The translations under genes were made by a program, and so were the position numbers. Below, piece by piece: positions 11,338-13,387 of a stretch of 64,000 nt of DNA. Within the stretch, counting starts at the first letter, position 1, and each line of letters begins with the position of its first letter. The notes under the pieces are model-generated. The model was not told the DNA's origin, did not search any database, and worked only from the letters and a program-made list of their open reading frames with translations. The DNA is from Caldisericum exile AZM16c01 (GTDB taxonomy: Bacteria > Caldisericota > Caldisericia > Caldisericales > Caldisericaceae). Location of the stretch: assembly GCF_000284335.1 (NCBI RefSeq), contig NC_017096.1:1364001-1428000 (forward strand). Direction: 5' to 3'.

Positions 11338-11715
11338 TTGAAGATTAGAAGTCCAAGAAGTGAAATTAACGTCAAGAACAAATACTACTTTTATGATACA
11401 GGGATAAGAAACGGTATAATAAACAATTTCAACAAGTTAGATTCAAGAGATGATGTTGGTGCTCTTTTCGAAAATTTTGTAATAGCCGAGAGATTAAAAA
11501 AACATAAATACTTGAGGACTTTTACAAATTTGTACTTTTGGAGAACGTATAGCAATGGTGAGATAGACCTAATAGAAGAATCTCAAGGAGAAATACTCTC
11601 TTTTGAAATAAAGTGGAATAAAATCGTTAAACCGCCCAAGTTATTCTTCGAGACTTATAAAAACTCGACTTTCGAAGTGATTACAAAAGAGAACTACCTT
11701 GATTTTGTAATATAA
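11338..11715 (+). pseudogene. C-terminal remnant of a DUF4143-type AAA ATPase
   Basis: The open frame of 125 codons begins at a TTG with no ribosome site. NKYYFYDTGIRNGIINNFN, then VGALFENFVIAERL and GEIDLIEE match the C-terminal DUF4143 domain of a roughly 380-aa ATPase family that is frequent in anaerobes. The whole N-terminal ATPase half, including Walker A and B, is missing, and no upstream piece is found before the divergent gene. I read it as a decayed gene rather than a functional small protein. Confidence 0.7.
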
Positions 11716-11787: not shown

Positions 11788-11810
11788 ATGTTGTAAGGAG
11801 GCTTGATAAG

Positions 11811-11984
11811 ATGAATACAGTAAAGCATGTAAAAATTGTAGCAAAAAAGCCATTCTGGAATATCGATAAGGCACATGACTGCAGGGCATGTCAAACGCCT
11901 TGTAAGTCCGCATGCAAGACAAGTGTAACTGTTGGAAACCAAGTTTGTGAAATAAAGAAACCTGTTAAAAGGTGGATCTGGTAG
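11811..11984 (+). CDS. SCIFF-type ranthipeptide precursor (five cysteines)
   Basis: 57-aa peptide, missed by length filters. It starts with ATG 11811, 9 nt after AAGGAGG. It matches the 'six cysteines in forty-five residues' precursor family: a His-Val-Lys-Ile leader near residue 6, then the core CRACQTPCKSACKTS and TVGNQVCE. Cysteines are at 24, 27, 31, 35 and 46. The position of the sixth family cysteine, between the SACKTS segment and Thr40, is Val39. Cys35 and Thr40 keep the i/i+5 spacing cross-linked as a thioether in the characterised Clostridium peptide CteA. The C terminus carries an extra basic/aromatic tail ending RWIW. The gene for its radical SAM maturase follows after 5 nt. The function of the mature peptide is unknown. 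Confidence 0.9.
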   Translation: MNTVKHVKIVAKKPFWNIDKAHDCRACQTPCKSACKTSVTVGNQVCEIKKPVKRWIW

Positions 11985-11989
11985 TCTGA

Positions 11990-13387
11990 ATGTTTGACGA
12001 ATCTTTGGTGCATCTCTTCCCCTTTAACGGGGAATTTTTTGCTGTTGACGTAAATTCGGGAAGCCTCTTAAACTTGGATGAGATAACGTATTTTTATTTG
12101 AAAAGCCTTCAAGAAACAGATTCAAAAGAAAAAGCCTTTAACATAACAAAGGAAAAGTTTGGGGAGGTTGCATTCGAAATACAAGAAGAAGTCGATGAAC
12201 TCATTAGAGATGGCATTCTTTTTTCAAAACCTCCAAAATATTTTGAGTCCAATCTCATATTAAAATCAATGTGCCTTAATGTTGCACACTCCTGCAACTT
12301 TGGATGTCTTTATTGCTTTGCAAAAAAGGGCAATTATGGCGGATCTGATGCCTTGATGAGTTTTGATGTAGCAAAGGCTGCGATTGATTTTCTTGCAAAA
12401 AATTCATCAGGACGCGTTACTCTTGAAGTTGATTTCTTTGGAGGGGAGCCCCTCCTCAATTTTGAGGTTGTAAAGAAAACGATAGAGTATGCAAAAGAAA
12501 CTTATAAGAATAAAAAATGGCGATTCACAATAACAACAAACGGAAGCATTCTAACAGATGAGATTGAAAAGTTTCTCTATGATAACGATGTGAGTATCGT
12601 ATTAAGCCTCGATGGTGATAAGCATGTAAATGACAAATATAGAGTACTGAGAAGTGGTCTTGGCACTTTTGATTTGGTATTTCCGAAAATAAAGAAGGTG
12701 ACAGAGCACAGAGCCGAATCTGGTGGATACTACGTAAGGGGCACCTATACACACAATACGCTTGAAATATCAAAAACCGTTATGGATCTACATAACTTTG
12801 GCTTTAAATATATTTCTCTTGAACCTGTCGTAACAAAAGAAGAAGATATTGGAATTAAAAAAGAGGATTTGCAAATTCTTAAAAAGGAGTATGAGCACCT
12901 TGCAATAGAATACGTAAATTCACAAAAAGAAAGCACTTGGAACTTCTTCCACTTTAATCTCGACTTAGAGGCAGGCCCATGTATTCAAAAGCGTATTCAT
13001 GGATGTGGTGCAGGTGTTGAATATATTGCAGTATCACCCGATGGCTCAATATATCCATGTCATCAATTTGATGGCATAAAAGAAACAAAGTTGGGAGATG
13101 TATTTTCAGGCATTACAAACAAAGAATTGCAAGAAAAATTCAGAAAAGCAAATTTTCTCTTTAATAAAAAAGAATGTGCAACATGTTGGGCAAGGTTCTA
13201 TTGCTCTGGCGGTTGCCTTGCAAATAACTATACTATGAACGGCGATATCTTCAAGCCTTATGAAATTGGCTGCGATATCCAAAAAATGCGCATTGAAGCA
13301 GCACTTTATGTTGCATACAAATTAAGAGAACTCGATATAGAAGTCCCAACAACACAACTTTCTGAAAAAAGAGATTCTGTAAGGTAA
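11990..13387 (+). CDS. SCIFF peptide maturase, radical SAM thioether synthase
   Basis: 465-aa cytosolic radical SAM/SPASM enzyme that forms thioether bonds in the adjacent precursor. Residues 1-85 form a RiPP-recognition-like region. The SAM [4Fe-4S] motif CNFGCLYC is at 102-109 (Cys102, 106, 109), preceded by Cys95 as in the family. The C-terminal SPASM/twitch cluster region includes CGAGVEYIAVSPDG, CHQFDG and CATCWARFYCSGGC. It begins 5 nt after the precursor stop without its own clear ribosome site, so it is likely translationally coupled. Adjacency to the precursor makes the assignment firm even though the precursor lacks one cysteine. Confidence 0.93.
   Translation: MFDESLVHLFPFNGEFFAVDVNSGSLLNLDEITYFYLKSLQETDSKEKAFNITKEKFGEVAFEIQEEVDELIRDGILFSKPPKYFESNLILKSMCLNVAHSCNFGCLYCFAKKGNYGGSDALMSFDVAKAAIDFLAKNSSGRVTLEVDFFGGEPLLNFEVVKKTIEYAKETYKNKKWRFTITTNGSILTDEIEKFLYDNDVSIVLSLDGDKHVNDKYRVLRSGLGTFDLVFPKIKKVTEHRAESGGYYVRGTYTHNTLEISKTVMDLHNFGFKYISLEPVVTKEEDIGIKKEDLQILKKEYEHLAIEYVNSQKESTWNFFHFNLDLEAGPCIQKRIHGCGAGVEYIAVSPDGSIYPCHQFDGIKETKLGDVFSGITNKELQEKFRKANFLFNKKECATCWARFYCSGGCLANNYTMNGDIFKPYEIGCDIQKMRIEAALYVAYKLRELDIEVPTTQLSEKRDSVR

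Follow-up and report, generated by a model that had tools for sequence, protein, structure and literature searches.

A Five-Cysteine SCIFF Precursor beside Its Radical SAM Maturase in Caldisericum exile, One Natural Variant in a Recurrent Series

Introduction

The locus considered here raises the question of how a SCIFF peptide, of a family named for six cysteines, is to be understood when one of the six is replaced, and which residues of such a precursor matter for its modification. SCIFF is one of the widespread radical SAM peptide systems, a family whose role is unsettled and in which the position of the cross-link is disputed. The gene pair lies in a 64,000-nucleotide stretch of the Caldisericum exile AZM16c01 genome (hereafter the window, in whose coordinates all features are given). 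The initial annotation described a SCIFF precursor beside its maturase, with Val39 in place of the fifth family cysteine, and regarded the peptide as exceptional. In the following, the family cysteines are numbered Cys1 to Cys6, so that Cys35 of the Caldisericum peptide is Cys4 and Val39 stands at Cys5; the threonines two and five residues after Cys4 are denoted i+2 and i+5.

Results and Discussion

Identity of the precursor

The precursor gene (11811..11984, + strand) is preceded by a ribosome-binding site, AAGGAGG (11795..11801, + strand), 9 nt upstream of its ATG start, and its open reading frame translates into the 57-residue peptide MNTVKHVKIVAKKPFWNIDKAHDCRACQTPCKSACKTSVTVGNQVCEIKKPVKRWIW, all as read from the sequence. 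The ORF, its coordinates and its residues are thus as originally described. The peptide exceeds the curated cut-offs of both family models, with 56.6 bits against TIGR03973 (cut-off 50) and 56.6 bits against PF13165 (cut-off 27). Only 5 bp separate its stop codon from the ATG of the maturase gene, well within the distance of 500 bp from a SCIFF maturase that is used in practice according to PMC5300114, and the maturase likewise scores above the cut-off of its own model, TIGR03974. With a maturase next to it and a score above the curated threshold, the peptide is filed as SCIFF, and the proposed pairing of the two genes is confirmed: the locus is a genuine SCIFF gene beside its modifying enzyme. 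It is the only SCIFF copy in the host genome, a single contig of 1,558,103 bases. A search for solved structures related to the precursor peptide found none.

The core, CRACQTPCKSACKTSVTVGNQVC (11880..11948, + strand), was delimited from the sequence and from column statistics over relatives. The cysteines of the precursor are found at positions 24, 27, 31, 35 and 46, with the GTA codon of Val39 (11925..11927, + strand; read from the sequence) at the fifth-cysteine site, and both candidate threonines, Thr37 (i+2 of Cys35) and Thr40 (i+5), are present. The gene ends in a C-terminal aromatic tail, RWIW (11970..11981, + strand). With five of the six family cysteines, the peptide does not conform to a literal six-cysteine reading of the family name. 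This rule is, however, typical rather than defining, because many accepted members break it: all eight of the Cys5-less genomes tested against the family cut-off pass it, and Cys5 has changed at least 12 times, as described below.

The maturase and the surroundings of the locus

The SCIFF maturase (11990..13387, + strand) is a radical SAM/SPASM protein of 465 aa with an N-terminal RRE region, which scores 505.3 bits against TIGR03974 (cut-off 425). It matches CteB (PDB 5wgg) over the full length with an E value of 3.6e-128 and, in the alignment, fills 12 of 12 family cysteine columns, including the CX3CX2C radical SAM motif (Cys102, Cys106 and Cys109) and the SPASM cysteines. The same 12 cysteines are present in every row of the maturase tree that covers them, including those of the Caldisericota family f4. 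The maturases were also inspected for residues that change along with Cys5, and a comparison limited to independent pairs left no convincing column. The f4 maturases differ at two positions that show 100% identity elsewhere, Phe110 being replaced by Ser and Ser276 by Ala; Phe110 directly follows the radical SAM motif, and its column is a gap in one alignment row. Three more near-invariant columns also differ in this family.

Throughout Caldisericota, precursor and maturase are either both present or both absent, and in the seven SCIFF-less genomes of the phylum the maturase search gave no hit near the family cut-off. As to a conserved neighbor such as an exporter or a peptidase, no gene family besides the maturase was seen near the pair in all of the Caldisericota families compared. 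Outside the window, at about 87-110 kb of the contig (G000:C1), several weaker matches to the SCIFF maturase model are clustered, which suggests that further radical SAM/SPASM genes are grouped there. Upstream of the precursor, a 125-aa ORF at 11338-11715 has a match to DUF4143 that covers just the C-terminal half of the domain (Pfam positions 72-160 of 160), and it appears to be what is left of a longer gene.

The start of the maturase gene contains a terminator-like hairpin, TTCCCC-TTTAAC-GGGGAA (12017..12034, + strand), followed by TTTTTT, which represents a candidate attenuator acting between the two genes. Each of the five Caldisericum species has a hairpin of the same kind, and comparable ones occur in several sister families. 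In Caldisericota generally, precursor and maturase nearly touch and the hairpin falls within the maturase start, being strong in families f3 and f4; in Bacillota that retain Cys5, 26 of 40 loci have such a hairpin and T run in the intergenic space downstream of the precursor, vs 5% of control windows. As far as demand beyond the encoded protein is concerned, none of 200 synonymous-codon shuffles was as stable for f4, for the f6 sequence tested and for one of two f3 sequences. The Caldisericum hairpin is marginal (11 of 200 shuffles as stable), and no such excess is seen for the other f3 sequence (38 of 200) or for an uncultured group with Met at Cys5 and a KWTW tail (88 of 200). The hairpin likely acts as a partial terminator that would yield more precursor than enzyme. 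Promoter-like matches near the precursor gene are close to chance expectation (13 found vs 9.5 expected in the region), and an Rfam search of the 64-kb window returned one tRNA and nothing else.

Val39 within Caldisericota

SCIFF is carried by 47 of the 54 Caldisericota genomes, in one copy each, and all 47 loci were read. On the question raised earlier, whether Val39 is unique or clade-wide, these loci show that Val occupies the fifth-cysteine column in 15 of 15 SCIFF-bearing Caldisericaceae genomes, four of the 14 besides Caldisericum exile belonging to the same genus. The Val codons differ among these genomes (GTA in nine, GTT in five, GTG in one), and over the 26-codon core the mean dN of 0.030 and mean dS of 1.45, from the 36 pairs that gave finite values, correspond to a dN/dS of about 0.02. 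This synonymous turnover of the Val codon, together with the low dN/dS, indicates that Val39 is kept by selection. A sequencing error, which had been named as a possible refutation, and a pseudogene are both excluded as explanations for Val39, the residue being found in the 14 other genomes with different codons.

The other families of the phylum show further replacements: Met in f2 (four genomes), Ser in 14 of 15 f3 genomes with Cys in the remaining one, and Asn in f4 (five), while f5, f6 and f7 have Cys. The overall tally for the 47 loci is V15, S14, C9, N5 and M4. Uniqueness of Val39 is rejected, the residue being fixed across Caldisericaceae and Cys5 being replaced elsewhere as well. The RWIW ending fares similarly. 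It is present in all Caldisericaceae, sister families end in RFIW, KWIW, PWIL, YIF or FVF, and an aromatic C-terminus is found throughout class Caldisericia and is absent from Bacillota SCIFFs; the tail, initially considered atypical, is typical of its own clade, and the candidate of an unusual C-terminus was accordingly dropped.

Loss of Cys5 outside Caldisericota

The replacement of Cys5 is not confined to this phylum. One genome from each of 84,980 species was scanned for SCIFF cores whose fifth-cysteine codon has A, C or T as its middle base, and 81 stretches, those of Caldisericota included, were obtained, a lower bound since the pattern is blind to Gly, Arg, Trp and AGY-encoded Ser. Outside Caldisericota, the scan recovered Ile in Moorella, Thermanaeromonas, Vulcanibacillus and Tepidibacillus, Ile or Leu in Desulfotomaculum/Peptococcaceae relatives, Ala in Caloramator, Fervidicella, Sarcina and some Clostridium, and Val in Defluviitaleaceae; overall, the replacements outside Caldisericota are Ile, Leu, Ala, Val and Glu. 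Within the Moorella phylum (200 genomes), 12 of about 150 matches listed, counted by eye, are without Cys5 (seven Ile, five Leu). In three uncultured genomes that make up a small phylum-level group of their own (L115, L126 and L151), Cys5 is Met and the tail is an aromatic KWTW; the maturases of these three loci branch with Caldisericia.

The maturase tree of 101 rows requires at least 12 changes between Cys and non-Cys, or 17 if each residue is counted; it was built by a quick method, and gains and losses are not distinguishable on it. Thus, the claim that Cys5 is dispensable holds in sequence terms, given its clade-wide loss and these repeated changes. The claim that the peptide is exceptional does not survive, because many family members routinely lack Cys5, the very finding that had been named as its refutation. 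Comparison across these lineages shows Val39 to be a natural variant, one among many replacements that recur at this site in SCIFF and are fixed in their lineages. In class Clostridia, an even draw of 391 genomes gave 249 matches to a pattern unconstrained at Cys4 and Cys5. Both cysteines are kept in 248; the sole exception is the center genome, which had been picked for its missing Cys5. Such nearly complete retention implies that Cys5 has some value there.

Variation at the cross-link acceptor and donor

As summarized in two reviews (PMC8326336, PMC8172795), the acceptor of the thioether in CteA and Tte1186a, with Cys4 as donor, is disputed between the i+5 Thr, assigned in vitro, and the Cγ of the i+2 Thr, assigned by co-expression. 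Natural variation bears directly on this point. Among 80 Clostridia genomes missed by a pattern requiring the i+5 Thr, 42 carry SCIFF, and in all 42 position i+5 is Gly, Ala or Ser and the i+2 Thr is intact. One Clostridia family includes 40 of 78 cores without the i+5 Thr, in a set whose search pattern required the i+2 Thr, and the maturases of such Clostridia are intact in the examples read. A large Clostridia group (L229-L258 and L262-L273) has the i+5 Thr replaced by Gly, rarely by Ala or Ser. Two loci, L271 and L272, contain a tandem double SCIFF, arranged leader-core-leader-core in one open frame of 95 aa upstream of a single maturase.

The donor varies as well. In the two genera of Caldisericota family f4, Cys4 is Ala and Cys5 is Asn in five of five SCIFFs (CRECQTPCKSAAKTANT); these loci (L043-L047, core e.g. 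L043:1627-1728) keep both threonines and an adjacent maturase. Since the precursors (45.3 and 39.8 bits for the two tested, cut-off 50) and the maturase (362.6 bits for the one tested, cut-off 425) score below their family cut-offs, f4 is treated as a SCIFF relative and not as a filed member. In one Clostridia family, Cys4 is Ser in seven and Val in one of 78 genomes, and here the Ser4 examples tested lie well above the cut-offs, with 75-79 bits for the SCIFF model and 761 bits for the maturase model. Loci and genomes with Ser or Val at Cys4 are L265, L276, G680, G716, G744, G667, G663, G740 and G677; the maturase of L276 is far above its cut-off, and in Clostridia SCIFFs with such replacements the i+5 Thr is always lost too. 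Since several lineages lack Cys4, a thioether from this residue cannot be made by every member of the family, and the biologically relevant product may be another.

Across the profile-found sets (47 Caldisericota, 42 Clostridia and four more, 93 parsed genomes), no variation is seen in Cys1, Cys2, Cys3 and Cys6, in a Ser-Ala pair, in the Lys-Thr after Cys4 that holds the i+2 Thr, or in the Asn-Gln that precedes Cys6, a result to be read with the bias that the finding profile was built on these same residues and that the pattern-found sets required Cys1 to Cys3 and the i+2 Thr. The core of L277, with one extra residue between Cys1 and Cys2, was left unparsed in this count.

Proposed mechanism and alternatives

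Taking these comparisons into account, the locus is best read, with reasonable though not full confidence, as a two-gene SCIFF ranthipeptide system that forms one thioether between Cys35 and a threonine and does not need Cys5. By homology to CteB, the RRE region of the maturase would bind the leader of the precursor, after which the enzyme would most likely link Cys35, the fourth of the family cysteines, to a nearby threonine through a single non-alpha thioether. A thioether to a beta or gamma carbon is the mark of ranthipeptides. Thr37 (i+2) is the more probable acceptor than Thr40 (i+5), because in the natural variants the i+2 Thr is invariant and the i+5 Thr varies. Cys5 would not be needed for this bond, its site being held as Val throughout Caldisericaceae by purifying selection. 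That the peptide is modified in Caldisericum, through which donor and acceptor, and that Cys5 is dispensable in the chemistry itself, we infer from sequence comparison.

The invariant residues are open to a different interpretation. Here the i+2 Thr together with Cys1, Cys2, Cys3 and Cys6 would carry the conserved function, these cysteines forming, for instance, a four-thiolate metal site or serving as donors of other cross-links. Cys4, with the thioether known from CteA, Cys5 and the i+5 Thr, from which the published cross-link and in part the family name derive, would each be naturally dispensable. This possibility is consistent with the invariance over the 93 parsed genomes, with the Ala at Cys4 in all f4 SCIFFs and with the eight Ser or Val replacements in the Clostridia family; in addition, the first core cysteine (Cys21) in the CteB crystal could interact with the auxiliary cluster, which is open (PMC8326336). 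On the other hand, the search profile and patterns rest on those very residues, the insertion in L277 falls between two of the cysteines concerned, and the Cys4 linkage is the only one found when CteA and Tte1186a were studied in vitro. A core of this kind is considered rather unlikely, including in its metal-site or alternative-donor form; were it correct, f4, lacking Cys4 and Cys5 and with its maturase cluster cysteines intact, would represent a functioning SCIFF that lacks the known cross-link.

Still less probable is that a Cys35-Thr40 thioether is essential and the remaining peptide secondary. The i+5 bond was assigned in vitro for both Tte1186a and CteA (PMC8326336, PMC8172795), and Cys35 and Thr40 are both retained in Caldisericaceae. 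The critical role given at the outset to the Cys35/Thr40 spacing is weakened by the Clostridia, in which all 42 recovered SCIFFs and about half of the family of 78 have lost the i+5 Thr, by the losses of Cys4, and by the co-expression work that places the linkage at i+2 (PMC8326336). A decayed or mis-assembled gene deserves practically no credence. The missing name-giving cysteine is all that speaks for it, and it is refuted by the agreement of 15 independent assemblies, by the retention of Val through synonymous change, by the dN/dS of about 0.02 and by the tight operon with an intact maturase.

Overall, the initial observation is correct and its interpretation holds in part, but the locus is less exceptional than first claimed; what makes it useful is the series of natural variants to which it belongs. 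The variation in the i+5 Thr and Cys4 and the identity of the invariant residues bear more on the mechanism than Val39 does. The lineages that have repeatedly lost Cys5, the i+5 Thr or even Cys4 supply ready substrate-enzyme pairs with which the acceptor could be settled, and the same pairs can decide if the chemistry that SCIFF conserves is the known thioether. The Caldisericum locus is one clean member of this series, having Cys4 and both threonines with Cys5 replaced.

Comparison with known systems

Like CteA from Clostridium thermocellum and Tte1186a from Caldanaerobacter subterraneus, the Caldisericum precursor belongs to the TIGR03973 model, is accompanied by its own adjacent maturase, and contains the same donor cysteine, the fourth, with threonines at i+2 and i+5 (PMC8326336). 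It differs from both in Val39 at the Cys5 site, in the RWIW-ending tail after Cys6, in a gap to the maturase of just 5 bp and in the terminator-like hairpin placed inside the maturase gene. The maturase matches CteB (PDB 5wgg and 5why) over its full length and shares all 12 conserved cysteines, but in the tree it belongs to a distinct branch of Caldisericia with strong support, and its score is lower (505 bits vs 761 for a Clostridia example). The closest parallels in cysteine content are the five-cysteine SCIFFs of Moorella, Caloramator, Sarcina, Desulfotomaculum/Peptococcaceae and Tepidibacillus, in which Cys5 is likewise lost and the other five cysteines are kept; unlike the Caldisericum peptide, these arose by independent replacements with other residues and do not have the aromatic tail.
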